Shown: in pieces, positions 1 through 59,339 of the stretch | Numbering within the stretch: position 1 is the stretch's first letter | Layout of the letters: each line of letters opens with the position of its first letter | IMG/VR virus record: IMGVR_UViG_3300032053_000002 | Coordinates: 172,752 to 236,751 of that record | DNA: 64,000 nucleotides | Source: a virus | Direction: 5' to 3' (one strand) | Notes under the pieces: generated by a model | Databases searched by the model: none | What the model saw: only the letters and a program-made list of their open reading frames with translations | Told to the model about the DNA's origin: nothing | Made by a program: the position numbers and the translations under genes

Positions 1-308
1 AATTTTTCCCCTTTTGACATTTCTCGCATTTTATCAAGATGATTTACTAACTGATTGCATGCAAGAATTAGAAAATCAAATCGGGGGTAACAAGTTATCG
101 GAACAAATCCTTCCAACGCAAGTCCTGTGGATATACCCATTTGTAATTCTTCAGCAACAGGCATCTCATATCGTTTTTCTTTTGGTACACGTTCCATTGT
201 ACCAGACATAGCATGACCACTATATACAATTGCTTGCCCAATAAAAATAGTATTTGGTTTTTCTGCTAGCCATTCCATTGCCTTAATTAATTCTTCTCTG
301 TATTTCAT
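1..308 (-). CDS. TPP-dependent dehydrogenase E1 beta-like subunit, partial
   Basis: The 3' part of this gene runs off the left edge of the window, so only about 102 N-terminal residues are visible. They read as the pyrimidine-binding domain of a transketolase-like or 2-oxoacid dehydrogenase E1 beta subunit. The stretch MPVAEELQMGISTGLALEGF matches the family pattern in which a glutamate activates thiamine diphosphate, and it is followed by YPRFDFLILACNQLVNHLDK. The ATG at 306-308 lies 13 bases past the end of the E1 alpha-like gene, so the two form one transcription unit and probably one enzyme. With sugar-nucleotide genes alongside, a role in transferring a two-carbon unit to a keto-sugar is more likely than pyruvate oxidation. 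That role is inference; the fold assignment is fairly secure. Confidence 0.75.
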   Translation of the reverse strand, partial: MKYREELIKAMEWLAEKPNTIFIGQAIVYSGHAMSGTMERVPKEKRYEMPVAEELQMGISTGLALEGFVPITCYPRFDFLILACNQLVNHLDKMREMSKGEK

Positions 309-321
309 AAGTTTTTCGCCT

Positions 322-948
322 TTAAAAATTTAAAAATTTGCCAGTTCCGTGGTGAGGATACTCTAATTTGTATGAATACGTAATAATATCACTGTAAAAA
401 GGACTTGGGATGCCCCACGCAATATTAGTTGGCGTATGAACGCTCATACCGTTGTCCTCGACAACAAATTGAATGGGCAAATTGAAATTTTTTGAATACT
501 TATGGCTTTCGTGAAATATTCCCGTTTCATAAGTCATATCGCCAATAAAGCACCACACTTTTCTTTCAGATTGTTTAAATTTTAGCGCCAGTGCAACACC
601 AACCGCTATTGGTATTATTCCACCAACAATTGAAGATGCATAAAAGTTTTTATAACTGGTACTCATACTTCTACCATTTAATATGTCTTGAAACAAAATA
701 TCTGGCGACATCCCATGTAATAATGCATGATAGTGATTTCTCCACGTAGAAAACACCCAATCGTCCGGATGAACATATTGAAAAATTTCCATTAGTTCAT
801 CTTCATTTCCTTTTGATAAATGAATCGCGGCTTTTATTTTTCCGTCGTTATAATATTCGGCAACCGCCGTTTCAAAGTCAATAAGTTCTTGTTTAGTAAT
901 TGTAATATCTCTAATTTTTTTAAGATTTTTTGGAATGTGTATATCCAT
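322..948 (-). CDS. TPP-dependent dehydrogenase E1 alpha-like subunit (compact)
   Basis: This is the thiamine-diphosphate-binding half of a two-subunit E1-type enzyme. Residues 70-79 (RNHYHALLHG) match the conserved E1 alpha segment around the TPP phosphates. GDM at 136-138 followed by EDNG at 164-167 is the GDG...N metal and diphosphate motif, with the third glycine replaced by methionine. At 208 residues it is far shorter than the roughly 320-400 of pyruvate or branched-chain E1 alpha, so the peripheral helices are missing. The ATG at 946-948 follows GAGGGA at a normal distance and sits one base after the neighbouring stop. It pairs with the E1 beta-like gene next to it. Enzymes of this split type act on sugars in some antibiotic pathways; the substrate here is unknown. 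Confidence 0.75.
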   Translation of the reverse strand: MDIHIPKNLKKIRDITITKQELIDFETAVAEYYNDGKIKAAIHLSKGNEDELMEIFQYVHPDDWVFSTWRNHYHALLHGMSPDILFQDILNGRSMSTSYKNFYASSIVGGIIPIAVGVALALKFKQSERKVWCFIGDMTYETGIFHESHKYSKNFNLPIQFVVEDNGMSVHTPTNIAWGIPSPFYSDIITYSYKLEYPHHGTGKFLNF

Positions 949-949
949 A

Positions 950-1726
950 TTATACGTCCCTCAATAAATTTTTAATTTTGCTTCCTGAACGCACCCAAAC
1001 ACTTCTCGAAGGCTTTCCAACTACCGCATCTACCATCGAACCCAATTCTATGCAATGTATATTCTTATTTAAATTCCACAATCTCTTTGTAATAACTCGC
1101 CCCGCCATACCTGCAGTAGGTAAAACCAATTCAACATCATCGACATACTTTAATACTTCAGGCCACCACTCGTCCATAGAATAATATGCTCCCGAAAATA
1201 CTTTCTGTTCTTCTACTTTTGCGCAAGGAATTTTAACATAATAATCTATTTTACCTACTAATTTTTCGATTTCGTTTTTATCTACACTTCCTATAAAAAG
1301 TTTTTTCTTTGGACGTATAAAAACATCTAGAAAATTCATCATTATATCTTGTTGGCACACGGCTAAATAAGTTAATAAAACGTGAGAATCGAAAGTTATT
1401 TCTTCTCTTTCGCCATCATAAAGACGCTCAATAAGATCTAATATTTGTTTATTGCGAGCCGAATTTACGGGTTGCAAACTAAAACCATTAAACGTAGGCT
1501 CGTTTACCATAACACCTTTAATATAATTCGGAGCGTCAATCATAAACGCGCCAACCAATTCTTTTTGAAGTTCGGGTGACGCGGCGTGTTCTATACACCT
1601 TCCCGTACCAAACATAATATTTAAATCGCCGTCACCAAATCTGCAATAGTATACTTTAGTATTCGTACTCAACAAATTATACAATTTGTTAAGCGTTGTT
1701 TGTATGTCATTGGTTTTTATTATCAT
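950..1726 (-). CDS. GT-D fold glycosyltransferase (DUF1792-like)
   Basis: The protein (258 aa) looks like the DUF1792/GT-D family of glycosyltransferases, which add a sugar, often glucose, to glycan chains on surface proteins. RFGDGD at residues 29-34 resembles the N-terminal signature of that family. The C-terminal part, with an LGSMVDAV segment, resembles the end of the same domain. A clean AGGAG precedes the ATG, and the stop lies one base before the E1 alpha-like start, so it is translated from the same message as the sugar genes around it. There is no signal peptide or membrane segment, so it should act in the cytoplasm. The donor and acceptor cannot be read from sequence. Family assignment is moderate, from motifs only. 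Confidence 0.6.
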   Translation of the reverse strand: MIIKTNDIQTTLNKLYNLLSTNTKVYYCRFGDGDLNIMFGTGRCIEHAASPELQKELVGAFMIDAPNYIKGVMVNEPTFNGFSLQPVNSARNKQILDLIERLYDGEREEITFDSHVLLTYLAVCQQDIMMNFLDVFIRPKKKLFIGSVDKNEIEKLVGKIDYYVKIPCAKVEEQKVFSGAYYSMDEWWPEVLKYVDDVELVLPTAGMAGRVITKRLWNLNKNIHCIELGSMVDAVVGKPSRSVWVRSGSKIKNLLRDV

Positions 1727-1727
1727 T

Positions 1728-2690
1728 CTATTCTCCTCGAATATAAAGAAGATCGTCGCCTTCTTTACCTTTTATTCCTAACTGATAATTATGTTCTAAC
1801 ATATATGTATGAAAATCGTTAACCTGCGTTGGCGAAAGAATTAATGGATGTTGTTCCGCAAAAATAACTTTTGGTCTTATATTTTTTAGCCCTTTTATTA
1901 CGTTTAATTCCAACCCCTCCACGTCAATATGAAGCAAATCAATTTCCGTAATGTTGTTTTCTTGACAATATGTGTGCAAAGAAATTGTTTTTATTTTTAT
2001 GGGATCCGAAAATATAATTCTATAATCCCCATCTTTCGCTCTCGATTCAATAAATGTTCCGCTCCCGCAAATTACTTGCCGCCCCGATGCAACTTTAGCT
2101 GAATAAAAATTGCGCTCACCATCTTCGTCCGATACTCCAATATTTGAAAGGATGATGCCTTCATCTTTCATATAATCTTTAATTTTATCATTGATTCCAG
2201 GATCCGCTTCAAATGCATGCACTTGCGCGTTTTTCCACTTACGTTTGAATCGTATTGAATCTCCACCATTATTGCACCCGACATCAAAAATTACTTTAGG
2301 AATTATTTCCAGTTCGTCTATCCAATTTAAATTAAATGCGCTATAGTTAAGATAGAGAATCGTTTCTTTTCCGAATTCATTTATTGTGGTTTTATAAAAA
2401 TTCTCGGTTTCTCCGGGTAAATAATCGGATTTTATCTTTTTATTTACGATTGTAGGCATTGCCGTCACCCGCGCATTTTCTTCTTTCAATTCTTTATATT
2501 TGGATTTTATTTCATCATATAATTTTTCCAATCGAATCTTTTCTTCTTTCAACTCTTTATATCTCGTTTCTATCTGGTCGAGCGTTTTTTTCAAATAGTC
2601 AATTGTTTTTTGAACGTCGATAATTTGAAATTTAGTCTGGCCCAATTGAAACGCCAGATTTTCATATAAGACTTTAATGGAATCAGGCAT
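1728..2690 (-). CDS. FkbM-family methyltransferase with N-terminal coiled coil
   Basis: Residues about 20-75 are rich in K, E and L in heptad order and should form a coiled coil. Residues 133-145 (VIFDVGCNNGGDS) are the SAM-binding motif I of a class I methyltransferase, and IDLLHIDVEGLE near residue 250 is the FkbM family hallmark. FkbM enzymes O-methylate sugars or other small substrates. Its 3' neighbour is a GT-D glycosyltransferase, and its start overlaps the radical SAM gene by 8 bases, so it belongs to the sugar operon. Methylation of a deoxysugar or of a finished glycan is the natural inference. The coiled coil may tether it to a partner glycosyltransferase. Fold certain, substrate unknown. 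Confidence 0.85.
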   Translation of the reverse strand: MPDSIKVLYENLAFQLGQTKFQIIDVQKTIDYLKKTLDQIETRYKELKEEKIRLEKLYDEIKSKYKELKEENARVTAMPTIVNKKIKSDYLPGETENFYKTTINEFGKETILYLNYSAFNLNWIDELEIIPKVIFDVGCNNGGDSIRFKRKWKNAQVHAFEADPGINDKIKDYMKDEGIILSNIGVSDEDGERNFYSAKVASGRQVICGSGTFIESRAKDGDYRIIFSDPIKIKTISLHTYCQENNITEIDLLHIDVEGLELNVIKGLKNIRPKVIFAEQHPLILSPTQVNDFHTYMLEHNYQLGIKGKEGDDLLYIRGE

Positions 2691-4086
2691 AATTTACATC
2701 TCTTTTATATAGTTCTTTATTATTCATCATTTTTTCAAATACGTCTAAATTTTTTATTGGCGCCAAATCATACGCTAATTTCTGATATTTTCTAAGTGTT
2801 TCTATGCTCATTCTTTCACTTTCCATAACTATCCCGTGTTGTTTTCCGTACTCATCCCAATCATTAGATAATATTTTTAATCCATATTCTCCTTTAGTTG
2901 CCCACTCTCTCAATATTGTCCCTGGAAATGGAACCGCTATTGGGTATGTTAGGGAATATACTTTTGGATATAAAAGTTTGGAAAATTCTATAATTTCTTT
3001 CGCCGTTTCTTCGGTTTCCCCCGCCAAATTAAAGATAAAACTTCCCGCCGTAATAATTCCCGCATCCCACGCAGCATCCACCGCACTTTTTATTTGCCAT
3101 TTTGTTTTAATTCCCTTACCCACTCTCGCAAGCATATCTTCATTCGCAGCTTCAAATCCGAAAAATATGTAATAACATCCTGCTTCCCTCATCAATTTGT
3201 AAAACGAAAGGTCGTCTATATGAACCGTCGTTTCGCAAGACCATTTTATTTTTTTGGAGATTCCGGTCTCTATCATTTTTTTAAATAATTGTTCAGACCA
3301 ATTTTTATTAACTACAAAAGATTCATCTAAAAAAACTATTGCCTCTACACCAAAATCTCTGTGATTTCTTTCCATTTCATATATAATACTATCGATTGAA
3401 CGATAAGTACGTTTCTTTCCAAAAGGTCTGGCGCAGAAATGACAATTGTACGGACACCCTCTGCTTGTGCTCATGGGAAGTTCCCGAGATGTTCGGTGTG
3501 GGTCGCCTCCCATATATTTATTTAAATCCGCAAAATCTTCCCACGCGGGTGATGGTAAGTCATCTAACACCGTCACTCTTAGCGAATCGGACGGGGAAAA
3601 GGATTCCGCCGTATAAATTCCCGGAACTTTATTTGGAGTATTTAAATTTTCAAATATCAAAGGCAGAAGTGTATCAGCTTCACCTTTGACTGAAAAATCA
3701 AAGACCGGAAATTCTTTTAATGTCTCCACCGGCATAGCGGATGCATGAGAACCGCCAACGCATATTTTTATTTGCGGAAATTCGTTTTTAATATGTTGCG
3801 CAATCTTGGCAGCAGTTTTAATTTGCACAGTGAATGCGGTGAATCCTATCAATAATGGTTGTTCTTTTTTTATAATATCAATCAATTCTGGTATATTAAC
3901 ATTTTCCGTTACCAAATTAACAACCTTTGACTTTATATTATATTTTTTAGCGGATGCCTGTAAATATGCCAATCCAATGTTTGGCACATTTCCAGTAGAT
4001 AAGTTTTTTAATACTTGTTCTTTTTTAAATTTATCAACCATTCTAGGATCAAACTGCGTATCAATTAATAATAAATCTAAACTCAT
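2683..4086 (-). CDS. B12-binding domain radical SAM protein
   Basis: This 467-residue protein has an N-terminal Rossmann-like cobalamin-binding domain (about 1-170, with TGNVPNIGLAYL and a GGSHAS turn). A radical SAM barrel follows, with the 4Fe-4S ligands C211, C215 and C218 in CPYNCHFC. B12-dependent radical SAM enzymes usually methylate unactivated carbons or rearrange small molecules, often in natural-product or lipid and sugar pathways. The B12 domain lacks an obvious DxHxxG motif, as is common in the base-off type. It overlaps the FkbM gene and, through ATGA, the RmlD-like gene, so it is co-translated with sugar biosynthesis genes. C-methylation or rearrangement of a deoxysugar would fit. 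The class is clear, the reaction is inferred. Confidence 0.88.
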   Translation of the reverse strand: MSLDLLLIDTQFDPRMVDKFKKEQVLKNLSTGNVPNIGLAYLQASAKKYNIKSKVVNLVTENVNIPELIDIIKKEQPLLIGFTAFTVQIKTAAKIAQHIKNEFPQIKICVGGSHASAMPVETLKEFPVFDFSVKGEADTLLPLIFENLNTPNKVPGIYTAESFSPSDSLRVTVLDDLPSPAWEDFADLNKYMGGDPHRTSRELPMSTSRGCPYNCHFCARPFGKKRTYRSIDSIIYEMERNHRDFGVEAIVFLDESFVVNKNWSEQLFKKMIETGISKKIKWSCETTVHIDDLSFYKLMREAGCYYIFFGFEAANEDMLARVGKGIKTKWQIKSAVDAAWDAGIITAGSFIFNLAGETEETAKEIIEFSKLLYPKVYSLTYPIAVPFPGTILREWATKGEYGLKILSNDWDEYGKQHGIVMESERMSIETLRKYQKLAYDLAPIKNLDVFEKMMNNKELYKRDVNYA

Positions 4087-4781
4087 AATAGATTACTCAT
4101 TTTTGTTATATTCATAGAAATATCTTCGGAATCAATAAACTTTCTGTTCTTATGTATAGGTAAAACTTTTGGATTGGTTTTCTTTGCCATATCATAAACC
4201 GTTTTTAACTCTGTTCCGATATTATATATTCCGATTGCATCCTTCTTTATTACTTTTATCATCAACTTTGCTATCACATCAACATAATCGAAATTTCCAA
4301 CTAAATCAATCCATGCGCTATCGTAAGGAAATGGTATCGGTTTAAAAGAAGATCTTAATATTAAGTATTTGTTCGACTTTGCAACTATATATGCATCGGC
4401 TAATAACTTTGTATAAGTATACCAATTATCATAATGAATAGGAATATCTTCTTCTGTCGCCATCTTTTTTGAATTCGCATAAACATAATCCGTGCTGATA
4501 TGAACTAATTTTATATTTAACTTGTTGCATAATTCTACCAAATCAATCACCGCAACATAATTTGTATTCCAGTGCATATTTCTTGTGTTATCCAACGTGT
4601 TCGTATACGCAATGCAATTTATCAATTCTTTCGGGTTGTATTTTAACAATAAAGGATAATAACTATTGCTATCAATAAAATCAAATTTATCTTTTAGGCG
4701 ACTTATACAATTCCATCTTGTCAAGTTAATAATTTTACTTCCTAAAAGTCCATCACCTAAAATTAATCTTTTCGGTTTCAT
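4083..4781 (-). CDS. RmlD-like NAD(P)-dependent sugar reductase
   Basis: A short (232 aa) extended-SDR protein. It opens with a degenerate dinucleotide motif (GDGLLGSKI, residues 8-16). It then shows HISTDYVYAN, the conserved STDYVF-type strand of RmlD, and a YTYTKLLAD segment carrying the catalytic Y...K pair. RmlD reduces dTDP-4-keto sugars. About 60-70 residues of the usual length of roughly 290 are absent, and the GxxGxxG motif is worn, so cofactor binding may differ. The gene overlaps both neighbours by four bases (ATGA), which ties it to the RfbH-like dehydratase upstream. It probably reduces the 4-keto product of the RmlB/RfbH steps. This is inferred from family and context. Confidence 0.75.
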   Translation of the reverse strand: MKPKRLILGDGLLGSKIINLTRWNCISRLKDKFDFIDSNSYYPLLLKYNPKELINCIAYTNTLDNTRNMHWNTNYVAVIDLVELCNKLNIKLVHISTDYVYANSKKMATEEDIPIHYDNWYTYTKLLADAYIVAKSNKYLILRSSFKPIPFPYDSAWIDLVGNFDYVDVIAKLMIKVIKKDAIGIYNIGTELKTVYDMAKKTNPKVLPIHKNRKFIDSEDISMNITKMSNLL

Positions 4782-6085
4782 TGAGAAAATTCCTTAACTA
4801 TTTTTTTAATATAATTTATTGTTTTTTTATTGTATTGCGGGGAACATCCAACAAAAAATACTCTTTTCAACACTTTATTTGCATTTTCATATTCTTTCCA
4901 ATCGCCTAAATGTTTATATGCTGGATGAATTAAAATGTTTCCTGCAAAATAATTTCTAGTTTGAATTCCGCTTTTTTCCAAATATTCGACCAATAAATAT
5001 TTCATTTCTTCATTATCGCATATTAGCGGAACTCCAAACCAACAAACGTCCGATAGAGAAAGAACATCTACTCCCCGTAAACCGATTATATTCGATAAAA
5101 ATATTTCTTCTATTTCATTTTTATATTTTATTCTTTTTTTATGTATTTCGCCAAATTTTTGTAGTTGAACCAACCCAATCGCGCCTTGTAAATCTAACGG
5201 TTTTAAATTATACCCAACATTGGTAAATATGTATTTGTGGTCGAGTATTCCATCGTGTTCAGGTATCCATTTATCAAATCTATGTTTGCAGGTTCCGCCG
5301 GGTAACAAATTTGCAGCTCCAACACAATAACAATCCCTTCCCCACCATGCCATACTTCTGGCGATTTTTATTATTTCCGAATTATTGGAACAAATCATTC
5401 CACCTTCTCCGGTTGTAATGTGGTGCGCGGGATAAAATGAAAATGAACTCGCAATCGCAAAATTATGCAAATACTCACCATTCCACTTTGTCCCTAAGCT
5501 ATCACAACTATCTAATATTAATTCTATTTTATGTTCGTTTGATAAATTCACTAAACAATCCATATCCGGCGGATTTCCGAGAACGGGAGATATGAATATT
5601 GCGCGTGTTCTTTCTGTTATTTTATTTTTTATTTCGGCGACATCAAAATTAAGAGTGCCGAATTCAATATCCACGAAAACCGGTTTTAAATTGTTAAGCG
5701 TTATTGCAGATAATGTTGTCGGAAATCCAACTACTGATACTATAATCTCATCCCCATCACTCCATTTTAAATATTTTTTTAACGCGGCTATCATCAACAA
5801 ATTGGCCGAACTTCCAGAATTCACCATTACAGAACTTGTTATGCTAAACATTTTTGAAAAGGTTATTTCAAATTTGTGGACATATTCTCCTCCAGAAAAC
5901 CATTTTCCGAAAATCAATGATTCCATTATTGCCAATATTTCTTTTTTATCAAAATACGGACCGGAATAAAAAACTCTATTCTCAAATTTTTTATTGTTGT
6001 AAACAAACTTTGGAAATTGACCAAAACTTTTTGTCAGTTTATTTATTATGCCATGAAGTTTTTTCTTATTTTTTTCCGTAATCAT
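4778..6085 (-). CDS. RfbH/E1-type PLP sugar 3-dehydratase (DegT fold)
   Basis: A 435-residue DegT/DnrJ/EryC1-fold protein. In place of the PLP lysine it carries histidine: H221 in SFYPAHHITTGEGG. This is the hallmark of 3-dehydratases such as RfbH, SpnQ and ColD that remove the C3 hydroxyl of 4-keto-6-deoxyhexoses. Cysteines C194, C252 and C254 have the C-X57-C-X1-C spacing described for the [2Fe-2S] cluster of the CDP-sugar E1 enzyme. The fourth (C266) lies 11 rather than 7 residues further on. This favours an E1-type iron-sulfur enzyme needing a reductase partner, which I do not see in the window. It overlaps the RmlD-like gene by four bases. Function is strongly supported by the residues, the nucleotide carrier is not known. 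Confidence 0.88.
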   Translation of the reverse strand: MITEKNKKKLHGIINKLTKSFGQFPKFVYNNKKFENRVFYSGPYFDKKEILAIMESLIFGKWFSGGEYVHKFEITFSKMFSITSSVMVNSGSSANLLMIAALKKYLKWSDGDEIIVSVVGFPTTLSAITLNNLKPVFVDIEFGTLNFDVAEIKNKITERTRAIFISPVLGNPPDMDCLVNLSNEHKIELILDSCDSLGTKWNGEYLHNFAIASSFSFYPAHHITTGEGGMICSNNSEIIKIARSMAWWGRDCYCVGAANLLPGGTCKHRFDKWIPEHDGILDHKYIFTNVGYNLKPLDLQGAIGLVQLQKFGEIHKKRIKYKNEIEEIFLSNIIGLRGVDVLSLSDVCWFGVPLICDNEEMKYLLVEYLEKSGIQTRNYFAGNILIHPAYKHLGDWKEYENANKVLKRVFFVGCSPQYNKKTINYIKKIVKEFSQ

Positions 6086-6110
6086 GTTTCCTCATCTAAA
6101 GTTATTATTT

Positions 6111-7157
6111 TTATTCAGTACCAATTCCATCTAATTCTTTTAATAAATAATAGAGATGTTCGGCTCTCTTTTCGGGTTTGTTCTGAGCTTCATATATTTC
6201 TTGAAAACGCGTATACATTTTTTTATGAATATCCTGCCATTTAGAAATCGCAAAATCGAGTTTTTCTTCTAAATTACTCCAGTCCCACTTAACGGAAATA
6301 TAGGATTCGCCATCGACGTAAGGATTCGGTATGGTTTCAATATGGCTCATATCATTTTTAATTAAAATGCTTCCAAACATTGAAGATTCTAAATCACGAT
6401 GGGTTATTTCACCATAACCCAAAGGCCCAATAACCACTTTTGCGTTTGTCATTTTTTGATAATATTGGTCTAGTGGCAATCTAACTCCGTTAATCAATTT
6501 ATTTATGCTATATTTTTTTTCTAATTTTTCTAACTTTTCTATCACCGGTCGACGAAGTTCATCATAATATTTTGATTGAAGTTCTTCATGTTCATAAACT
6601 TCTTTTCCCATTGGATATTGGAACATTGCTGAAATATCAACCGGTTTCGGATTATTTCTGAACGGCAAATTCCAATTAGGAATTGTGGTCGATAACCAAT
6701 TAAATCCGGCGAGTTTCATTTTATGTTTCATATCATCTATATCCGGAACCGAATATTTTCCTTCGCCCCAATATATTCTTCCAGTATTCCACCCCCTTTT
6801 ATACAGATCAAAATCTTTAAGATACGTGGGTTTAAGAAATAGTCGGCATCGTTTATCTTTATAGACGTGTCTAAAGACATCAACGGTTCCTATTAGTGTC
6901 GTGGCGTCTTGCCCATCAACGATTATGTAGTCGCCAGTAATGGAATCGAGTTTTTTCAACCCCATTTCTACCGACTCTTTTAATGATTTTTTCTTGTCGA
7001 TAATAGACGCCTGTCCAACCATCGCGAAATCGTAAGAAGTCGCGTCGGTGATTAATTCTATCCCGAGTTGTTTAAGTAAATTTTTAATAAATAAATAAGG
7101 TCGATATGTACATTCGTTTCTATGAATATCTGGCTCAAATAACTTTATTTTAATCAT
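6111..7157 (-). CDS. putative glycosyltransferase (GT-B-like)
   Basis: I do not recognise a precise family. The C-terminal third resembles the donor-binding half of GT-B or exostosin-like glycosyltransferases: a segment around VVIGPLGYGEITHRDLESS, then LIKNDMSHIETIPNPYVDG and an alternating tail of helices. The N-terminal part (LFEPDIHRNECTYRPYLFIK) looks like a Rossmann-type half. At 348 residues the length suits a single compact GT-B enzyme. It lies between RmlB and the RfbH-like dehydratase within the sugar operon, which supports a role in using the deoxysugar made there. There is no membrane segment. Treat the glycosyltransferase call as moderate. Confidence 0.5.
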   Translation of the reverse strand: MIKIKLFEPDIHRNECTYRPYLFIKNLLKQLGIELITDATSYDFAMVGQASIIDKKKSLKESVEMGLKKLDSITGDYIIVDGQDATTLIGTVDVFRHVYKDKRCRLFLKPTYLKDFDLYKRGWNTGRIYWGEGKYSVPDIDDMKHKMKLAGFNWLSTTIPNWNLPFRNNPKPVDISAMFQYPMGKEVYEHEELQSKYYDELRRPVIEKLEKLEKKYSINKLINGVRLPLDQYYQKMTNAKVVIGPLGYGEITHRDLESSMFGSILIKNDMSHIETIPNPYVDGESYISVKWDWSNLEEKLDFAISKWQDIHKKMYTRFQEIYEAQNKPEKRAEHLYYLLKELDGIGTE

Positions 7158-7175
7158 TATTCAACCTTTTCAATT

Positions 7176-8144
7176 TCAATATGCCGCATTTTTCCACCAA
7201 GCTTCATTTTTAACATACCATCTAATCGTTTGTAATAAACCAACTTCAAATTTCCATTTATGCGACCACCCTAACTTTTTCATCTTATCGTATTCTATCG
7301 AATACCTAAAGTCGTGACCTGGCCTATCATTCACAAACTCGATCATATCTTTTGGCTTATTCATATATTCTATAATTAAATTTGCTATTTTTATATTTGT
7401 GAATTCTTTTTCTCCACCGATGTTGTAAATATTTCCAGATTCGCCATAATTTAATACATATTCTATAGCTCTACAGTTATCTAAAATGAAAATCCAATTT
7501 CTAATATTTTCGCCTTTTCCATATATCGGTATGGGTTTATCCTGAATTAAATTAGTGATTGCTAACGGAATAAATTTTTCTGGATGCTGATAATATCCAT
7601 AATTATTTGAACTCCTAGTGATTACTACCGGAACACCATAAGTTCGATAATATGATAATGCTAACAAATCTGCGGCAGCTTTCGATGCGGCATAAGGATT
7701 CCCCGGTTTCAACATTGATTCTTCCGTAAAAGAACCGCTATGAATTTCCCCGTACACTTCGTCCGTGGATATTTGAATGAACTTTTCTATTTTATATTTT
7801 TTCGCCGCTTCCAGTAGGACATACGTTCCAAATAAATTAGTATCCAAAAACTGTTTCGCGGAATCTATGGAGCGGTCAACGTGAGTCTCCGCGGCGAAAT
7901 TTATTATAACATCAACATTTCTCATTAAATTATTAACTACATTTTCGTTACAGATGTTCCCGCAATAAAACATAATATTTTTATCGTTTATTATACCGTC
8001 TATATTTTTTATATTGCTAGCATAAGTCATTGCATCCAATATTATTATTTCCTGGTTGTTTTTATCCTGACCATTTTTATTGTGCAAGTATCTGACAAAA
8101 TTGCTACCAATAAAACCCGCTCCGCCGGTCACCAATATTTTCAT
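7176..8144 (-). CDS. rmlB: dTDP-glucose 4,6-dehydratase
   Basis: A 322-residue extended SDR that closely follows RmlB. It has TGGAGFIGSNF at residues 7-17 for NAD, STDEVYGE with the catalytic Asp-Glu pair after the serine/threonine, and YAASKAAADLL carrying the Tyr-x3-Lys pair. NYGYYQHPEKFIPLAI is the usual substrate loop and RNWIFILDNCRAIEYVL matches the family end. The enzyme turns dTDP-glucose into dTDP-4-keto-6-deoxyglucose, the branching point for deoxysugars. It feeds the RfbH-like dehydratase and the RmlD-like reductase downstream in the same operon. No RmlA or RmlC is visible, so precursor supply comes from the host or from outside the window. Confidence 0.92.
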   Translation of the reverse strand: MKILVTGGAGFIGSNFVRYLHNKNGQDKNNQEIIILDAMTYASNIKNIDGIINDKNIMFYCGNICNENVVNNLMRNVDVIINFAAETHVDRSIDSAKQFLDTNLFGTYVLLEAAKKYKIEKFIQISTDEVYGEIHSGSFTEESMLKPGNPYAASKAAADLLALSYYRTYGVPVVITRSSNNYGYYQHPEKFIPLAITNLIQDKPIPIYGKGENIRNWIFILDNCRAIEYVLNYGESGNIYNIGGEKEFTNIKIANLIIEYMNKPKDMIEFVNDRPGHDFRYSIEYDKMKKLGWSHKWKFEVGLLQTIRWYVKNEAWWKNAAY

Positions 8145-24344: not shown

Positions 24345-25781
24345 TCATAATTCAAAAAACTTAATAGATTTTTTAGATTCCATTGCAATAGTAGATGTGA
24401 ATGGTTTAATATAAACTTTAACGTCTTTAATCATTTCACGAAATTTATCTTTATCCTTTTCCTGAATAAAATAATTTGTGAATCTAGAGTCTGGATTATC
24501 CTTGACTCCATGCTGCAATAACCAACGGCGAGTCCATTGCCAGGCAGAATTTTCGCTCATTACGTCGCTCGTTTGAGAAATAATGTCTTTTTTATATCCT
24601 ATCCCATTTAAAATATAATAAATCCAATCGTTTCCGTATTTTGTATCTTGGATGGTTTTGGAATAAAAAGTTTCATTCATCGCGTTGTGAAGATTTTGTT
24701 TAAATTGGGTTTCAAAATCCGCCAATTTCCATTTAAACATTGGTGGAACGGTTTTAACTAATTGCTCAAATTCGTCTTTTGTTTTAAAGAAAAATGGGTA
24801 ATCAACTCCCAAAATTCTTTCCAGAGTTGGGTGACGATATACTATAACTGGTTTGTTTAATCTAACTCCGTCTTGTGATGATAAATTCCAGGTTGCGTAA
24901 CCACTGACAAAACAAACTGACGCCAGACTATTCTCTATTAAATATCTATATTGCGAAAATTTTAAGTTTCTGGCGACCAGTTCTTTTGGAGCCCTAATGT
25001 CAGTGCACCAGACAATATATTCACCGCTATTCCGAAGATTTTCAGTATATTCCATCATCATATCCCAGCCGGTTGATTTATTCCATCGGTGATTGAATAC
25101 CAGTATTTTTTTATTTGTCGGAAAGTCTGATATCGGTTCAGATGGAGGAAAATCGTCCGAACTTAACGGCATACATTCAACTTTTTTCATCAAATTATCA
25201 ATATTTAATCCAACAACCATATCTTTTCTAAAGTTTTTTTCATAATACAATGGAGATTGTTCCGTATGAAAAAACGCCTTATCGGCAATATTTATTGCTT
25301 CCAGTTGTCGCATAAATGTTGGTGGAACTTGAGAAGAACCGCGAGAAGACGGATTATCTACCCAGTGAAAGAATAAAAATCTATCAACGATTTCGCCGTA
25401 TCTTTTTTCCGACAGAGAAGTCATTATATCCAACATTACTTCTGATTGATGGTTAAAAATAAAATCAAAATCTATTTGCCGTAAATCTATATGTTTTCTA
25501 AATGCGAGAAAATCATAGTGGGTGCGATTCACCACTGCATTTTTTACATACTCAAAAGGAATATACGTAACGTTTTTTCGTTGGTCGTATCCGTCAAGTT
25601 TATTTATTTTCGGAACAATTACGTAGTGATGACAGAACGGCAGAAAATTAATTGTTTTTTCTAAAACTTTATAGTTTGAATCGGATTGATGCAAAAATGT
25701 TCCGTCCGGACTAAATTTTACTGGCGCAGAATAGTGAAGTATTCTCATTCCGTACAATGGGTGGTCAATATAATTTTCCAT
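24345..25781 (-). CDS. GT-B glycosyltransferase, paralogue of the 32.4-33.9 kb gene
   Basis: A 478-residue GT-B enzyme. I use the ATG at 25779-25781, three bases after the upstream stop, rather than the GTG 15 bases earlier. KKILVFNHRWNKSTGWDMMM marks the start of the donor domain, and ASVCFVSGYATWNLSSQDGV resembles the nucleotide-sugar loop. The same architecture and several motifs (SNYKVLEKTINFLP, FLFFHW, NHRWN) recur in the protein at 32380-33906, so the two arose by duplication. It may have a different donor or acceptor from its copy. Confidence 0.75.
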   Translation of the reverse strand: MENYIDHPLYGMRILHYSAPVKFSPDGTFLHQSDSNYKVLEKTINFLPFCHHYVIVPKINKLDGYDQRKNVTYIPFEYVKNAVVNRTHYDFLAFRKHIDLRQIDFDFIFNHQSEVMLDIMTSLSEKRYGEIVDRFLFFHWVDNPSSRGSSQVPPTFMRQLEAINIADKAFFHTEQSPLYYEKNFRKDMVVGLNIDNLMKKVECMPLSSDDFPPSEPISDFPTNKKILVFNHRWNKSTGWDMMMEYTENLRNSGEYIVWCTDIRAPKELVARNLKFSQYRYLIENSLASVCFVSGYATWNLSSQDGVRLNKPVIVYRHPTLERILGVDYPFFFKTKDEFEQLVKTVPPMFKWKLADFETQFKQNLHNAMNETFYSKTIQDTKYGNDWIYYILNGIGYKKDIISQTSDVMSENSAWQWTRRWLLQHGVKDNPDSRFTNYFIQEKDKDKFREMIKDVKVYIKPFTSTIAMESKKSIKFFEL

Positions 25782-25783
25782 AA

Positions 25784-26179
25784 TTATTTTGCCCACATGC
25801 CACTTTTAACAACTCTTGCAATTTTAGAATAAACTGCTAAATCGCGATAACTATCTTCTACAGATTCATTATTTGCTTCCAATGTTTCTTTTATCAGAAT
25901 AATATTAAACAATCTTTGCATCTTGTCATTGCATCGAAACCAAATCCCTTCTAAACTCACCATTATTTCCTTTATTGTTTTTAATTGGGTTCCGACCGCA
26001 ATATTCCCAGTTCCATAATCGCTTTGTTTTTTACAGAACACAATATACTCTTCTAAAAGATAATGCTTGAAAGACGATGTTGTTTGCGGATAGTTTTTTT
26101 CCATTGTTTGTATTACTTCAATGTCTTTTTCAGACAATTCTGTTAATAAATTTAATTCGTATTTTTTTTCTTCGCCCAT
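25784..26179 (-). CDS. Nmad1/DUF1599-like nucleotide-modification protein
   Basis: A 131-residue all-helical protein. KKQSDYGTGNIAVGTQLKT, then GIWFRCNDKMQRLFNIILIK and NESVEDSYRDLAVYSKIARV match the DUF1599 family (nucleotide modification associated domain 1), seen with modified-base or nucleotide-pool genes in phages. The DY-GxxN and E-D-x-x-x-D patterns resemble MazG-type metal-binding helices, so a pyrophosphatase or base-modification adaptor role is possible. The gene lies between the clamp-loader gene and a glycosyltransferase. Confidence 0.65.
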   Translation of the reverse strand: MGEEKKYELNLLTELSEKDIEVIQTMEKNYPQTTSSFKHYLLEEYIVFCKKQSDYGTGNIAVGTQLKTIKEIMVSLEGIWFRCNDKMQRLFNIILIKETLEANNESVEDSYRDLAVYSKIARVVKSGMWAK

Positions 26180-32379: not shown

Positions 32380-33906
32380 TTACTCCGTTTCAAACATATT
32401 TTTCTTAGATATTTTTATAAACTTCGGATCTTTTTTTGCTTCGCTACAAAACTTTTTGTTTTTCCATTCTGGGTCGTCTAATAATTTTTGTACTTCTTCT
32501 TTCCTATCATCTCGAATTTCCAAACGAGTGTCCGAATCAAATGGGTCGTCAACCGCACCCATCATTATAACCCATCTCCTCAGATGCTCCCACGAATTAG
32601 ACAAGTGAAGGTCTCGATGTGTATTATAGAGAATATTTCTCTTATATCCGTTTCCGTTTATAATATGTTGTAACCATTCTCTTCCGTATAATCGTTGCCC
32701 ACCGTCACTGTACTCGCGATCATCACCCAGACTATGCGGTTCTTTTTTTCTTGCATCTTCATAATTTTTTATACACTCCGTCATCGAAGAAAGTAAATTA
32801 TTTTTAAACACTTCTTCGTGCGATGGTGAAGGTAATTTCCATTTATTTTTATCGGGCGACATTTCGAGTAATGATAAAAAATCACTTTTCGTTTTAAAGT
32901 ACTGAGTATAATTGTCGCCCAAAACGTATTTCATAATTGGATGCTCATAAACCAATGACCTCGCGCCCAATTCTATTCCGTCCTGAACCGACAAGTTCCA
33001 TGTAGCATAATCGTCCACAAATGTCAATGTCGCAAAACAATTTTCTATCAAATACCGATATTCTCCACGGCTTGGAAGCGATTCTACCCTCATCCAGTTC
33101 GGAGCGGCTTCACCGGCAGTTGGGTGTAGAGCATTTTTATCCGTTACCCAAATCAGATATTCGTCCCTGGATAAATCTTTCGTGTATTCTATTAAACGTT
33201 TAATTCCCGTGGAATTATTCCAGCGGTGATTGAAAACTAAGATATTTTTCTTTGGTAACGAAATTGGTTTGGATGGCGGGAACGGGTCTGGCGACAGAGG
33301 CATATAAGTGATTTTCTTTTTTATTTCAGTGTCGATTATCTCTCCGGCAATTCTCGATCTTTTCCAGTTGTCTTTTAAATAATTTATGGAAACATCACTG
33401 TGTATAAATGTCTTCGCAGATAAATCTATCGCTTCAATCTGTCGCCAAAATCCATCCGTATATGTTTCGGACGGCTTTGACTTTGGGGAGTCTATCCAGT
33501 GAAAAAACAGAAATGTATCTACTGATGTTCCATATCTTCTCGATAACATCCCGCTCATAATATTATAAAATAGTTCTGGTTGATGTAGAAAAATAAAATC
33601 AATGTCGTATCTTCGCCAGTCGAAAAAACTGGCCAGCGCGGAATATTCAAAATATCCCCGATTCGCTAAAACCGAAATCGGGTATGGAAAAGGCACCCAC
33701 GTAACATTTTTCCTAATGTAGTCGCCTCCAATTTCGTTTAATTCAGGAACCAGAATAAAATGGTGGCAATCAGGTAAGAAGTTTACGGTTTTCCATAAAA
33801 CTTTGAAATTGGAATCCGCGTGATGTTGCCAGACGTTTCCACTCCATCTAACAGGCGACATACAATGTAAAACTCTTCTACCGTATAATATACTTTTTTT
33901 ATCCAT
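32380..33906 (-). CDS. GT-B glycosyltransferase, paralogue of the 24.3-25.8 kb gene
   Basis: A 508-residue GT-B enzyme. KKNILVFNHRWNNSTGIKRL starts the donor domain, and NCFATLTFVDDYATWNLSVQ then GARSLVYEHPIMKYVLGDNY resemble its nucleotide-sugar loop. The order of segments and many exact motifs match the protein at 24345-25781. The C-terminal tail (LDDPEWKNKKFCSEAKKDPK) is extra. AAGGA precedes the ATG. The two copies lie 7 kb apart on either side of the replisome genes. Confidence 0.75.
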   Translation of the reverse strand: MDKKSILYGRRVLHCMSPVRWSGNVWQHHADSNFKVLWKTVNFLPDCHHFILVPELNEIGGDYIRKNVTWVPFPYPISVLANRGYFEYSALASFFDWRRYDIDFIFLHQPELFYNIMSGMLSRRYGTSVDTFLFFHWIDSPKSKPSETYTDGFWRQIEAIDLSAKTFIHSDVSINYLKDNWKRSRIAGEIIDTEIKKKITYMPLSPDPFPPSKPISLPKKNILVFNHRWNNSTGIKRLIEYTKDLSRDEYLIWVTDKNALHPTAGEAAPNWMRVESLPSRGEYRYLIENCFATLTFVDDYATWNLSVQDGIELGARSLVYEHPIMKYVLGDNYTQYFKTKSDFLSLLEMSPDKNKWKLPSPSHEEVFKNNLLSSMTECIKNYEDARKKEPHSLGDDREYSDGGQRLYGREWLQHIINGNGYKRNILYNTHRDLHLSNSWEHLRRWVIMMGAVDDPFDSDTRLEIRDDRKEEVQKLLDDPEWKNKKFCSEAKKDPKFIKISKKNMFETE

Positions 33907-50428: not shown

Positions 50429-50824
50429 TTATAAATTTATTATTTCAAATATTTTGGTGTTTATTTTCTTTAATCCATTTTCATCAGTGACTAATAGAGT
50501 GTTCTGAAATTTTTCCCAATCTATCTGAAAGTTTGGATCGGGTTTTCCGTCGTTTAATAGACTGACAATATGATTTAACGCGTTTATGGTATAAAGAGTG
50601 TTGGTTTGTTTCTTCCTATGAACTGAAATCGTATTGTGTAGTGTTTCGGAAGGAGTTTCTTTTAATTCGATATTATATGTGCACATTAGTTCTCGGTTAT
50701 TTTCTTTATTTTCTAATACATATATTCGCCCGAATACCACATTATAAGTTTTTTTTATCAAATCAATCGTTTCCTGTAATTTGTTTTTTTTAGTAAATGT
50801 ACACAGTAACTGAGTTTTATCCAT
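50429..50824 (-). CDS. hypothetical protein, 131 aa
   Basis: A 131-residue protein of unknown function. Its first half is a strand-helix pair (LCTFTKKNKLQETIDLIKKT) and its second half ends QIDWEKFQNTLLVTDENGLK. It overlaps the large gene upstream by eight bases, so it closes the late message that includes the polymerase-like and hub genes. No domain recognised. Confidence 0.5.
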   Translation of the reverse strand: MDKTQLLCTFTKKNKLQETIDLIKKTYNVVFGRIYVLENKENNRELMCTYNIELKETPSETLHNTISVHRKKQTNTLYTINALNHIVSLLNDGKPDPNFQIDWEKFQNTLLVTDENGLKKINTKIFEIINL

Positions 50825-53117
50825 CGCGTTTCTCCTCTTGTTTTTGTTTCAATTTTTCACCAATTCGCGTAATATGGCCCATTATTTCCTTTTGGGCTTT
50901 TTGATTGCCTTTATTTGCATTTAGTCGCTCTTCATATTCTCCTTTTAATTTTTTGAGAAAATTGACTCTTTGAATTGGATTCCATTTTTCTATATCAAAC
51001 GTTTTAAATTTTAAAGCGTTCGCCATATATGGGGTTTGATGTACTTCAAGTACTGGAGCGGCGCCGATTCCTCTTGTTCTAGAAGCTATAGTAAAAATGG
51101 GATATTCCTTACCATCTTCATGTTTTACTTTTATTACACCGTCTTTCGCTCCATCTTTAAAATCAATATAAATACTATCGTTTATATTTTTTATTATCAT
51201 ACCAGAATATTTTTTCTCCTCTTCTGAAGTTTCGGCTTTTTGAAATTGCTCGTAGATTTCCAAATTCTCGTATAATGCGGTAGTCTTTTTACCGAATAAT
51301 TCTAATAAAGTTTCCTTACTCAACTCGGCTCCATCCGGGGGTTCTCCATACGCAACAATAAATTGATCCAGTTTATTATTTTGTTCTAGATTAAGAATCT
51401 CCTTTATATGAACTTTATTTATAATATTTTTTTTAACATTTGCCGCGAATTTCGGATTCTCTTCAAAAACTTTTAATAGTCTAGAAGTAAGTCTATTATC
51501 AGCTAAATTTATATCGTCATATAAATTTGGATGTTTTTCGTAAATAGGGGAACCGCGACCAATGATTCTTGATACAGATTTTATTTCATCCGCAGTCAAT
51601 TTTTCTCCGAAACTATATTTTTTAACTAACGAATTAAAATTAGATAGTATCCCTAAATATTTAGGATAATTACTACCAAATACAGATTTAGATAATTCAG
51701 AATTAGATTTAAATTTTTTCAATGAGGATTGTAAGTCTTCTTTCATTTCTTTATTCAAAGTACTGACCGCCCTTCCTAACTTCTCATCTCTGTCGGCATA
51801 ATAAGTTTTTACTCCGGCCATATTGGAAATTTTTTGTTTTTCGGAGTCGCTCATGCCTTCTGTCAGATCAGACAATGCCAGTTCATATCCAAGATTTACC
51901 AAAAATACGTCGCCGTTTTTCTTTAATGATATACCGATTCTCGACATCCCCTTTTTTGTTTTCACTGTAATAAACATATCAGAAGGAGTTTCGTGTCCTT
52001 CAACTCCAACCAACTTTCTTCCGGATGGAGTATCCCACGCAACTTCACCTATATTTTCTATTCCATATTTTTTTACTATGAGTTTTGTAGTGCTAATCGC
52101 TCCATTAACCCACGATTCGTCTAAATAAGTGTTTTTTCCACCCATTTTTTTCTTACTCGCGATTTTCATTAAAGCATCTTCTATATCTTCAATAGATTTT
52201 CCTTCTTTTAATTGCCGGATAGCATAATGTACACTGGCCTCTCCCGCTCTAGATTCGGGCGTACCTAATCCGCGACTTAATAATTTTCCACTTTTTCTTA
52301 ATTTTTCTTCTTCATTATATTGATCTTCAGTAAATGTTAAAGCTTTATCCGTTTCATCATGATCGATTTTCCTTAATCTTTCTTTTTGTTTATCATCCAA
52401 TTTTTCAGGAGTCGTTGGTTCTTTTTCTGGGGGTTCTTCCGGTTTATCCTCCTTAGATGCTACATACTTTCCCGCTTTTGCCTTTTCAACATCTTCCGGA
52501 TTCGCGTCCTTTTTTATTAATGCTTGCCCTTTTTTTGGATCGTATTGTTGCACCGGATAAACATTTCCACTTTTTTTCTTTTTTACTAAATCTTCTTCGC
52601 CGACCAACTTTTTCGAATTTTTTTGCCACTCTTTTAAATCATCATATTTAACAAACAATCCTTTTTGTATTTCAACAACTATATCATTTGTAGGCAACCT
52701 CTTTATATTTTCAGCAATAGTTAATAAAGACAAATCTTCTACAGAAATCAGGTTTTCGGTTTTTTCTAATCTGTTATTATCGTAAAAATATGATGGCATA
52801 GTATTTTCTGAAACATCTTCTTTTTCGTCGCCTTCGATTTTTTCTGGCGACTCTTCTTCTTTTGGTTCTGGTTCTTCAGGCACTAATATTTTACGAACTA
52901 CCAAACTTTCTGGTTCGTCAATACCTTCTCCTTTTTCAGATATTGCTATCAATCGTTCTATGATTATATCTGAAGGTATGTTTGATTTTTTTAAAATATC
53001 TTTTAATACAATAAGATGCGACATATTAAAAATATCCGGCATACCATCGTGCACTTTGTATGCCCATTCTTCTAATAGTTCATCTATAAAATTTTCACTG
53101 TTTATATCAAGTAGCAT
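50817..53117 (-). CDS. large protein with PD-(D/E)xK-like core, 766 aa
   Basis: A 766-residue protein of unknown role. The first 40 residues (EEWAYKVHDGMPDIFNMSHL) resemble a module at the start of several large phage proteins. Residues 60-260 are acidic and Pro-rich linkers. A nuclease-type core follows: E293 in RAGEASVHYAIRQL, D380 in TPSDMFITV, and K399 in IGISLKKN, the E-D-x-K pattern of PD-(D/E)xK enzymes. The rest is long helices. GGAG precedes the ATG. A virion-borne nuclease or recombination enzyme is a guess; the motif is clear. Confidence 0.55.
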   Translation of the reverse strand: MLLDINSENFIDELLEEWAYKVHDGMPDIFNMSHLIVLKDILKKSNIPSDIIIERLIAISEKGEGIDEPESLVVRKILVPEEPEPKEEESPEKIEGDEKEDVSENTMPSYFYDNNRLEKTENLISVEDLSLLTIAENIKRLPTNDIVVEIQKGLFVKYDDLKEWQKNSKKLVGEEDLVKKKKSGNVYPVQQYDPKKGQALIKKDANPEDVEKAKAGKYVASKEDKPEEPPEKEPTTPEKLDDKQKERLRKIDHDETDKALTFTEDQYNEEEKLRKSGKLLSRGLGTPESRAGEASVHYAIRQLKEGKSIEDIEDALMKIASKKKMGGKNTYLDESWVNGAISTTKLIVKKYGIENIGEVAWDTPSGRKLVGVEGHETPSDMFITVKTKKGMSRIGISLKKNGDVFLVNLGYELALSDLTEGMSDSEKQKISNMAGVKTYYADRDEKLGRAVSTLNKEMKEDLQSSLKKFKSNSELSKSVFGSNYPKYLGILSNFNSLVKKYSFGEKLTADEIKSVSRIIGRGSPIYEKHPNLYDDINLADNRLTSRLLKVFEENPKFAANVKKNIINKVHIKEILNLEQNNKLDQFIVAYGEPPDGAELSKETLLELFGKKTTALYENLEIYEQFQKAETSEEEKKYSGMIIKNINDSIYIDFKDGAKDGVIKVKHEDGKEYPIFTIASRTRGIGAAPVLEVHQTPYMANALKFKTFDIEKWNPIQRVNFLKKLKGEYEERLNANKGNQKAQKEIMGHITRIGEKLKQKQEEKRDG

Positions 53118-53156
53118 CTATTTTCTCCAAAAAATGTTTTCATATCTATAAATATG

Positions 53157-54500: not shown

Positions 54501-54530
54501 ACATAAAACCTTTGGTAAGACATAACCGGT

Positions 54531-54899
54531 TTACTTCCAAAATTCTAAACGGTTCCCCAATTTTAAATTTAGACCTGGGAATATGGGTTCTAATGATTTA
54601 ACTACTCTATCGTTGGAAAGTTCCACATCAGAACGTTCTCCCGAAATTTTCCAGCGAAGAGATGTCGATAAATACAAGTCCGACAAAGACGATGCGACCA
54701 CCGATGTAAACATTTTGAATTCTTTTTCTTCGACTTCTATAATAGAAGAATCTTTATTAGATTTTAACTTTATAAAATACCGAATAATATATCCTCGCGC
54801 ATAATCGTTCTGTGTTGGGGCGGGAGTATAATTTCTTGGATATTTATAAACCATTCGCCTATTGCCAGTAATTATTTTATATTCTTTATTTATATTCAT
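54531..54899 (-). CDS. hypothetical protein, 122 aa
   Basis: I start at the ATG at 54897-54899; a GTG six bases earlier would overlap the hub gene. The protein is 122 residues, with MVYKYPRNYTPAPTQNDYAR early and a helical middle ending SSLSDLYLSTSLRWKISGER. A protein of this kind commonly follows the hub in T4-like phages and may be a baseplate part. Function unknown. Confidence 0.5.
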   Translation of the reverse strand: MNINKEYKIITGNRRMVYKYPRNYTPAPTQNDYARGYIIRYFIKLKSNKDSSIIEVEEKEFKMFTSVVASSLSDLYLSTSLRWKISGERSDVELSNDRVVKSLEPIFPGLNLKLGNRLEFWK

Positions 54900-54901
54900 T
54901 G

Positions 54902-56926: not shown

Positions 56927-56927
56927 T

Positions 56928-57239
56928 TTATCTAGCCTTATTTACGGTATCTAAATCGGAAAAAATCTTGCCCAAATTTTGCGGAATTCTTAATTGAGTT
57001 CCTGGGTCTATATTCAGCGTTCCTTTTCCAATGTGGTTTGCCTGAGCAATAATCCACCACAGAGTTACATCTCCGTAATAACGATACGCTAATAAATCCA
57101 GTCTATCCCCAACATTTGAATAAATATAAATATCATTTTCATCGTCTTCTATTTTTGGATAAATTGTGGAACTAATTTTACGAAACCCGGAATCTGTATC
57201 ATTTGCAACAATCGAACTTCTATATCTATCACTGGACAT
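56928..57239 (-). CDS. 53: baseplate wedge protein with LysM domain (gp53-like)
   Basis: A 103-residue protein with one LysM domain: YSNVGDRLDLLAYRYYGD, then LWWIIAQANHIGKGTLNIDP and GTQLRIPQNL. T4 gp53 is a LysM-containing baseplate wedge part, and many contractile tails have a LysM protein between the tape measure and the hub. GGAG precedes the ATG. The N-terminal 30 residues are polar. It probably joins tail tube and hub. Confidence 0.78.
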   Translation of the reverse strand: MSSDRYRSSIVANDTDSGFRKISSTIYPKIEDDENDIYIYSNVGDRLDLLAYRYYGDVTLWWIIAQANHIGKGTLNIDPGTQLRIPQNLGKIFSDLDTVNKAR

Positions 57240-57257
57240 ATATTATCTCCGAAAAAA

Positions 57258-59321: not shown

Positions 59322-59339
59322 TCATTTTCTCTCTGTTAT

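Follow-up and report, generated by a model that had tools for sequence, protein, structure and literature searches.

Introduction

Two-gene enzymes that resemble the E1 component of 2-oxoacid dehydrogenases and depend on thiamine diphosphate (ThDP) branch sugars from pyruvate, according to the accessible sections of a review, and for one of these pairs, KbDH-alpha/beta, activity in vitro is described there on ketones, some of them sugar analogues (PMC12247030). AviB1/AviB2 and Pau11/Pau12 (PMC4425429) as well as EvdU5/EvdS3 (PMC10338323) have been proposed to branch sugars likewise. In the same accessible sections, ketone-accepting ThDP enzymes are distributed over three superfamilies, no solved structure is given for a ketone-accepting alpha-keto-acid dehydrogenase 2 (alphaKADH2) enzyme, and viruses are named as an unexplored source (PMC12247030). 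Here, we describe a compact pair of E1-alpha-like and E1-beta-like genes located at the left edge of a 64,000-nucleotide stretch (hereafter the window, C1:172752-236751) of the virus record IMGVR_UViG_3300032053_000002, which is 292,723 bases (292.7 kb) long. To our mind, the chances are about even that this pair is an E2-independent compact ThDP carboligase adding a two-carbon branch to a GDP-4-keto-(3,)6-(di)deoxy-heptose. More tentatively, we suggest that minimal E1-type ThDP carboligases make up a mostly viral family, unnamed until now, which builds surface sugars of an undescribed class, GDP-linked carbon-branched (3,)6-(di)deoxy-heptoses, a chemistry that would be common to many phages and to few bacteria.

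Like the alphaKADH2 pairs (AviB1/AviB2, Pau11/Pau12, EvdU5/EvdS3 and KbDH-alpha/beta), the phage pair is a two-gene E1-like ThDP enzyme found in a nucleotide-sugar setting with no E2. In the published accounts available, these pairs are proposed or shown to act on a keto sugar with pyruvate, and they belong to actinomycete antibiotic clusters, whereas the phage pair is mostly viral and is part of a predicted GDP-heptose cassette. The sizes differ as well, with 325 residues for Pau11 and 345 for Pau12 (full length; PMC4425429) against 208 + 178 for the phage proteins. YerE and the YerE-like ErwE and JanthE are reported to perform a ThDP-dependent carboligation onto a 4-keto-3,6-dideoxy sugar (PMC12247030, accessible sections), as we propose for the phage enzyme. 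However, YerE is a single chain of the decarboxylase superfamily (acetolactate-synthase type), while the phage enzyme is of E1 type, encoded by two genes, with the pyrophosphate-binding (PP) domain before the pyrimidine (Pyr) domain in its fused relatives.

Regarding the acceptor, a dehydratase and a C3-dehydratase of C. jejuni yield GDP-3,6-dideoxy-4-keto-heptose, on which an epimerase and a reductase then act, the C3-dehydratase being 62-67% identical to two characterised ColD-kind enzymes (PMC10440746, accessible text). The phage cassette, as seen across its relatives, resembles this set in having a predicted heptose 4,6-dehydratase, an epimerase, reductases of the short-chain dehydrogenase/reductase (SDR) type and, in about half of the loci, a ColD-type C3-dehydratase. 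Four enzymes are named for the C. jejuni pathway in that text, none of them a ThDP enzyme, whereas in phage loci and in some cell loci the ThDP pair is flanked by an epimerase or kinase gene on one side and by the ColD-type gene on the other. By analogy, the phage cassette would be the C. jejuni heptose set plus a ThDP pair.

A compact E1-type pair

Genes were called as longest open reading frames (ORFs), with approximate start positions, and the beta gene, which is truncated by the window edge, was read in the parent record. In Pfam profile searches, the alpha protein matches E1_dh (3.3e-16, 59.5 bits) and DXP_synthase_N (22.4 bits), with no match to Transketolase_N. The whole beta protein matches Transket_pyr only (33.8 bits); no Transketolase_C match was obtained with the 178 residues searched, the C-terminal transketolase domain being absent. 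The best NCBIfam matches of the pair are pyruvate dehydrogenase (PDH) E1 models. Both proteins also match phrog_34187, a 405-position PHROG of unknown function that spans the two subunits (alpha at positions 4-200, 1.5e-53; beta at positions 237-381, 1.8e-28). From these profiles, alpha and beta are predicted to form an E1-type pair reduced to its two ThDP-binding domains. The beta proteins are 159-229 residues long in 85/85 cluster members, whereas intact betas from the full-length E1 loci have at least some 300 residues.

Structural models are in line with this assignment. The alpha model (predicted local distance difference test, pLDDT, 92.2) superimposes on human PDH E1 alpha with a Z score of 20.1 and a root-mean-square deviation (rmsd) of 2.4 over 195 aligned residues, and gives Z scores of 15.1 and 14.7 with a split transketolase and DXS, respectively. 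The model of a fused relative (L094, pLDDT 92.3) folds as PP+Pyr and, over its full length, matches residues 15-477 (of 617) of human transketolase (Z 21.1, rmsd 3.8, 357 residues aligned), a match that stops short of the C-terminal part of transketolase. In 32-row alignments, R70, D137, N166 and H199 of alpha, and E53 and H124 of beta, are invariant. Set against full-length E1, three of the alpha residues (R70, D137, N166) fall on the YR.H, GDG and ENN motifs, respectively, and the two beta residues, E53 and H124, fall on TPISE and QHSQ; we take these five to be cofactor or catalytic residues of E1. The structural match of alpha extends to E1 alpha residue 270.

The E2 profile PF00198 gave no match in the 292,723-base record, which may be incomplete, and matched 10 of 14 control genomes. 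A lipoyl-domain motif search over all loci returned a single match, gene 15 of L039 (439 residues). A tree was built from 28 compact alphas and 22 full-length ones, the latter being a sample from one phylum plus one cyanobacterium with no named sugar-branching E1 included; in it, the compact set forms one branch (100/100 and 200/200 bootstrap trees). Because there is no E2 match, because beta has no C-terminal domain and because alpha falls in a separate clan, we conclude that the pair is not a PDH E1. An earlier note on this DNA, which had set the pair apart from ordinary 2-oxoacid dehydrogenases, was right on this point; grouping with these enzymes and an adjoining E2 gene were looked for, and neither was found.

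A predicted GDP-heptose cassette

The neighbourhood of the pair was compared across this phage, L006, the 80 best viral loci and the cellular split-gene loci; dereplication at 95% alpha identity brought 89 loci down to 77, and five fused loci were excluded. Beta is present in 73 of the 77 loci, an RmlC-like gene in 60, SDR3 and SDR4 in 59 each and SDR5 in 42, while a His-type DegT gene occurs in 41 (39 ColD-type, 7 RfbH-type, 5 both), a PfkB kinase in 21 and a nucleotidyltransferase-like gene in 16. All 60 of these RmlC-like genes fall among the 72 loci in which the ThDP motif of alpha reads GDM. Most often, the genes run in the order RmlC, alpha, beta, ColD-type, SDR4, short SDR, SDR3, SDR5, PfkB, with the 4-keto-sugar epimerase (RmlC-like) at position -1 to the pair in 49 loci. 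A histidine replaces the pyridoxal phosphate (PLP)-binding lysine in 56/56 DegT cluster members. This phage has alpha, beta, SDR4, short SDR, SDR3 and SDR5 in cassette order, with up to 65, 70, 72, 53, 71 and 73% identity to relatives, respectively.

Several of these neighbours point to heptose, a link which, together with the family itself, we consider supported. The top eight PDB sequences for the RmlC-like gene score 146-155 bits and the next one 91 bits; five have GDP-heptose names and three are named Thymidine diphospho-4-keto-rhamnose 3,5-epimerase, and we presume that all eight are Campylobacter proteins. By its nearest match, SDR5 is a predicted GDP-heptose 4,6-dehydratase, and the best PDB match of the cassette kinase is D-beta-D-heptose 7-phosphate kinase. 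In the cell loci L087, L088 and L089, HddA or HddC is the first or second NCBIfam hit of the genes immediately ahead of the pair, and in L087 and L089 an HddA-like gene adjoins alpha; the HddA, HddC and HldE matches score below the curated cut-offs, and HddA of L089 was assigned by cluster. GmhB of L092 is above its cut-off (TIGR00213, 166 bits vs 149.6).

In the cell loci L087 and L089, beta precedes a ColD-type gene, and HddA, alpha, beta, ColD-type and B12 radical SAM genes are consecutive in L154 (by eye). A B12 radical SAM gene thus follows alpha-beta-ColD in two Verrucomicrobiota loci, L089 and L154, and the B12 radical SAM protein of the window belongs to a cluster (c56) that occurs in L089 and L090. 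In L151 (by eye), two exporter-like genes, Wzm and Wzt, precede the pair and two SDRs follow it.

In a reciprocal scan of viruses that made no use of the pair, alpha, beta and RmlC all accompany SDR5 in 6/6 of its close relatives (64-73% identity), and alpha is present in 0/36 distant ones (21-31% identity). Of the six close relatives, four or more are on contigs already found via alpha (L015, L048, L053, L055). In the reciprocal scans, some loci end early at contig ends. Of note, a family of about 437 residues (cluster 8, e.g. L057:7133-8413), whose representative has no Pfam match, has 109 members spread over 40 of the loci, frequently as the next gene behind alpha, and is perhaps a glycosyltransferase.

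Distribution and sub-families

The family was sought in IMG/VR and in 84,980 genomes with peptide patterns that differ slightly between the scans. At least 569 stretches were confirmed among the 600 candidates listed for IMG/VR, and at least 10 among the 596 listed for the genomes. Seeds excluded, the compact E1 family was found in 2 of 1560 genomes from the four seed phyla, i.e., those of the Acidimicrobiales (1/395), Prochlorococcus (0/385), Verrucomicrobiae (1/386) and Desulfobacterales (0/394) seeds. In the 396 Actinomycetota genomes, two matches stand out at 282 and 277 bits, the seed genome accounting for one of the two, and a 573-residue open frame comes next at 115 bits. Viral sequences thus hold many copies of the compact E1 family, and cellular genomes few.

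The ThDP motif reads GDM throughout the 72 dereplicated loci of cassette type; in fused and radical-SAM-associated members it reads GDG or GDA, and this second sub-family comprises five split and five fused members. A 735-kb uncultured phage record has beta, a radical SAM gene (by eye) and alpha consecutively. The fused single-chain form is found in the cyanophages S-SM2 (ADO97531.1) and P-TIM68 (AIR93527.1), annotated 'transketolase central region-containing protein'. These proteins, like phrog_34187, are of the same family as the phage pair but in one chain; they fall in the GDG sub-family, their neighbours are alcohol dehydrogenase and carbohydrate-kinase genes, and RmlC and ColD are not named in the annotated stretches.

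For both phrog_34187 and the cyanophage proteins (L004:14001-15209; L005:14049-15194), an annotation as compact ThDP enzymes of E1 type, fused into one chain, is now possible. An alcohol dehydrogenase-like gene, of zinc type according to the cyanophage annotation, lies immediately ahead of the fused gene in cyanophages, in one Prochlorococcus and on a Parcubacteria contig (L004:12987-13997, L092:1624-2640, L094:8945-9979).

Proposed function

From the domain make-up, the conserved catalytic residues, the missing E2 match, the separate clan and the genomic link to heptose, all observed here and the last in both viruses and cells, we infer by analogy a donor, an acceptor, a branch position, a product and a destination. 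The compact two-subunit E1-type (alphaKADH2) enzyme would serve a phage cassette that builds and modifies GDP-heptose. Alpha/beta would decarboxylate a 2-oxoacid, most likely pyruvate, and pass the two-carbon unit, with no E2, to GDP-4-keto-6-deoxy-heptose at its keto carbon. In many relatives, the adjoining ColD-type enzyme would first 3-deoxygenate this acceptor. A (3,)6-(di)deoxy-heptose with a carbon branch would result, which SDRs would reduce and glycosyltransferases attach to a surface glycan or to the virion.

Several observations weigh against this proposal. The GDM motif of alpha departs from the GDG of E1, and 36/77 loci have no ColD-type or RfbH-type gene in the stretch examined. 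In the second sub-family, RmlC is found in 0/5 split members, with heptose kinase or alcohol dehydrogenase neighbours instead, and one reaction common to both sub-families may not be 4-keto branching. This phage record has no match to RmlC (PF00908), a PfkB kinase, an HddA-like protein or NTP_transferase (PF00483); the host would therefore have to supply GDP-heptose or a precursor. The cassette ColD gene expected at +2 is missing, and the ColD-like gene that the phage does have is about 24 kb away, paired with a GDP-mannose 4,6-dehydratase gene, whose best PDB match scores 339 bits, against 336 for the best one named GDP-mannose dehydratase. Only 1/37 relatives of this ColD-like gene carry alpha. 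Since RmlC, PfkB-kinase, HddA-like and NTP_transferase matches and an adjacent ColD gene are all lacking, the product of this particular phage cannot be named.

Should heptose branching be confirmed, phages would carry a small ThDP ligase able to form a tertiary alcohol on a nucleotide-heptose. With about 400 residues and two domains, and with natural single-chain versions, such an enzyme would offer a tractable model of ketone-accepting alphaKADH2 enzymes. Moreover, phrog_34187 and the cyanophage 'transketolase central region' proteins would gain a function, and unknown heptose-based glycans on phages or on infected hosts would be indicated. The predicted branching of a rare seven-carbon surface sugar is a chemistry that can be tested in the laboratory. 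A literature search, returned as result listings and covering few subscription journals, retrieved no paper on a compact E1 phage family or on phage branched sugars.

The RmlB, RfbH-like and RmlD-like genes

The earlier note had proposed a different pathway for the pair, in which RmlB and RfbH would yield dTDP-4-keto-3,6-dideoxyglucose and the pair would add a two-carbon branch, giving a yersiniose-like sugar. All the genes concerned lie on one strand inside 8 kb, and YerE acts on CDP-4-keto-3,6-dideoxyglucose (PMC12247030, accessible sections). The window RfbH-like protein has RfbH as its best model (341 bits, below the curated cut-off of 423) and CDP-4-keto-6-deoxyglucose 3-dehydrase E1 as its best PDB match (3bcx, 222 bits). 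Like RfbH/E1 of 3bcx and 3bb8, it has a histidine at the PLP-lysine position (SFYPAHHITTGEGG) and four aligned cysteines, C194, C252, C254 and C266 corresponding to C193, C251, C253 and C261 of 3bcx (counted by hand). We take these cysteines to be iron-sulphur ligands. It differs from the solved enzymes by a longer cysteine loop, with about 4-5 additional residues between the third and fourth cysteines.

Despite this signature, a hexose acceptor for the pair seems improbable. Among the relatives of the window's RfbH, 7/7 have a homologue of the short RmlD-like gene and 0/7 have alpha, and conversely an RfbH-type gene is found in only 7/77 E1-pair loci. On this reciprocal test, RmlB and RfbH were rejected as the pair's own substrate makers; the pair belongs with the predicted GDP-heptose cassette to the left of the window. 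The earlier note had also suggested extending the sequence to the left for an E3-type reductase and a nucleotidyltransferase; neither turned up, with no match to PF00175, PF00111 or PF00483 in the record. As the record gave no E3-type reductase or ferredoxin match, RfbH would need a host reductase. The association of the pair with 3-deoxygenation holds for many relatives (39/77 loci with a ColD-type His dehydratase) but does not extend to the window's RfbH. RmlB, RfbH and the short RmlD-like protein are probably a separate 3,6-dideoxyhexose module beside the cassette.

Alternative functions

Unlikely too, in our estimation, is a transketolase-like enzyme making a heptulose or longer ketose phosphate as a precursor for heptose kinases, with no branch formed. 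Such an activity would suit the heptose kinases (HddA or HldE-like) that adjoin the pair in cells and phages even where no 4-keto enzyme is nearby, the transaldolase gene near the P-TIM68 copy, and the fused form, which aligns best to transketolases (Z 21.1). However, the sequence is of E1 type (E1_dh 59.5 vs DXP_synthase_N 22.4 bits, no Transketolase_N match) and alpha alone is structurally nearer to E1 than to transketolase. Moreover, no GmhA-like motif was found among the genes called from 94 loci, and the presence of RmlC in 60/72 GDM loci indicates nucleotide-sugar chemistry.

We are somewhat more doubtful still about a decarboxylase or ligase with a different target, for instance one making an aldehyde or acyloin for a glycan side chain with no ring branch. 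A variable acceptor is suggested by the partners, which differ between the sub-families (radical SAM, alcohol dehydrogenase, RmlC), yet the GDM group keeps its order with nucleotide-sugar enzymes and the 4-keto-sugar epimerase stands at -1 in 49 loci.

It is highly improbable that the pair is a PDH E1 captured for energy metabolism, or a decaying fragment of one, as its best NCBIfam matches would have it, given that no E2 match and no C-terminal domain were found, that alpha is in a separate clan, that the catalytic residues are invariant in the aligned rows and that beta is short in 85/85 members.

Two further candidates were tried and rejected. A PDH E1 acting as an auxiliary metabolic gene was ruled out by the lack of an E2 match, the separate clan and the absent C-terminal domain. 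For a phosphonopyruvate or sulfopyruvate decarboxylase type, the fused forms run PP then Pyr, and a simple motif search of the called locus genes found no PEP-mutase-like motif.

Gene layout of the window

The features considered are collected in Table 1. The genes that the earlier note had listed (RmlB, RfbH-like, RmlD-like SDR, B12 radical SAM, FkbM and E1 alpha/beta) are all present, on the minus strand and in the expected families.

Table 1. Features of the locus (window coordinates, unless a locus handle precedes the positions).
Feature	Position	Strand	Matches and remarks
Compact E1-beta-like gene, N-terminal 102 codons (ThDP pyrimidine domain)	3..308	minus	Transket_pyr, phrog_34187
Whole E1-beta-like gene, 178 aa	L002:18524-19060	minus	read in parent record; window edge truncates gene
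Compact E1-alpha-like gene (ThDP pyrophosphate-binding domain), 208 aa	322..948	minus	GDM motif; E1_dh, phrog_34187
258-aa protein, function unknown	950..1726	minus	no Pfam, NCBIfam or PHROG match; 63% identity to L007 gene 10
FkbM-type methyltransferase with N-terminal extension	1728..2690	minus	PF05050 5.4e-18, residues 136-304
B12-binding radical SAM protein	2683..4086	minus	PF02310 + PF04055
Short RmlD-like SDR	4083..4781	minus	PF04321 2e-17
RfbH/E1-like pyridoxamine phosphate (PMP)-dependent 3-dehydratase	4778..6085	minus	PRK15407 RfbH 341 bits; 3bcx 222 bits
348-aa protein, function unknown	6111..7157	minus	no Pfam, NCBIfam or PHROG match; 55% identity to L016 gene 10
RmlB, dTDP-glucose 4,6-dehydratase	7176..8144	minus	TIGR01181 424 bits, curated cut-off 365
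SDR5, heptose 4,6-dehydratase-like	L002:14436-15425	-	GDP-D-glycero-D-manno-heptose 4,6-dehydratase 7us5 221 bits vs 172 next

A homologue of the 258-residue protein stays near the alpha gene in one relative, L007, and the 348-residue protein recurs across related phage sugar islands. SDR-type genes continue to the left of the E1-beta-like gene, beyond the window, as read in the parent record. Over 18 kb of the minus strand, intergenic spacing ranges from -38 to +25 nt, and co-transcription of these packed genes is therefore plausible. Packing on the same strand is weak functional evidence, because 375/415 called ORFs of the record are on the minus strand. A promoter scan (47 vs 46.2 in shuffles) and a terminator scan (4 vs 5.5 in shuffles) gave no signal above shuffled sequence.

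The window also encodes a DNA polymerase, which we take to be T4-type, a DnaB-like helicase and a ribonucleotide reductase, and these predicted proteins support the phage nature of the record. A second sugar module lies at L003:11704-17484 (C1:145704-151484), with a carbamoyltransferase-like protein (assigned by cluster similarity, by eye), the GDP-mannose 4,6-dehydratase, the ColD-type 3-dehydratase and a second B12 radical SAM protein; a colitose-like or further modified GDP sugar is possible. Finally, six large ORFs of 483 to 1198 residues with no PHROG match are found at window positions 24345-25796, 32380-33906 and 50817-62936, and the GC content, about 34% elsewhere, climbs to 41-42% near positions 58000-62000.

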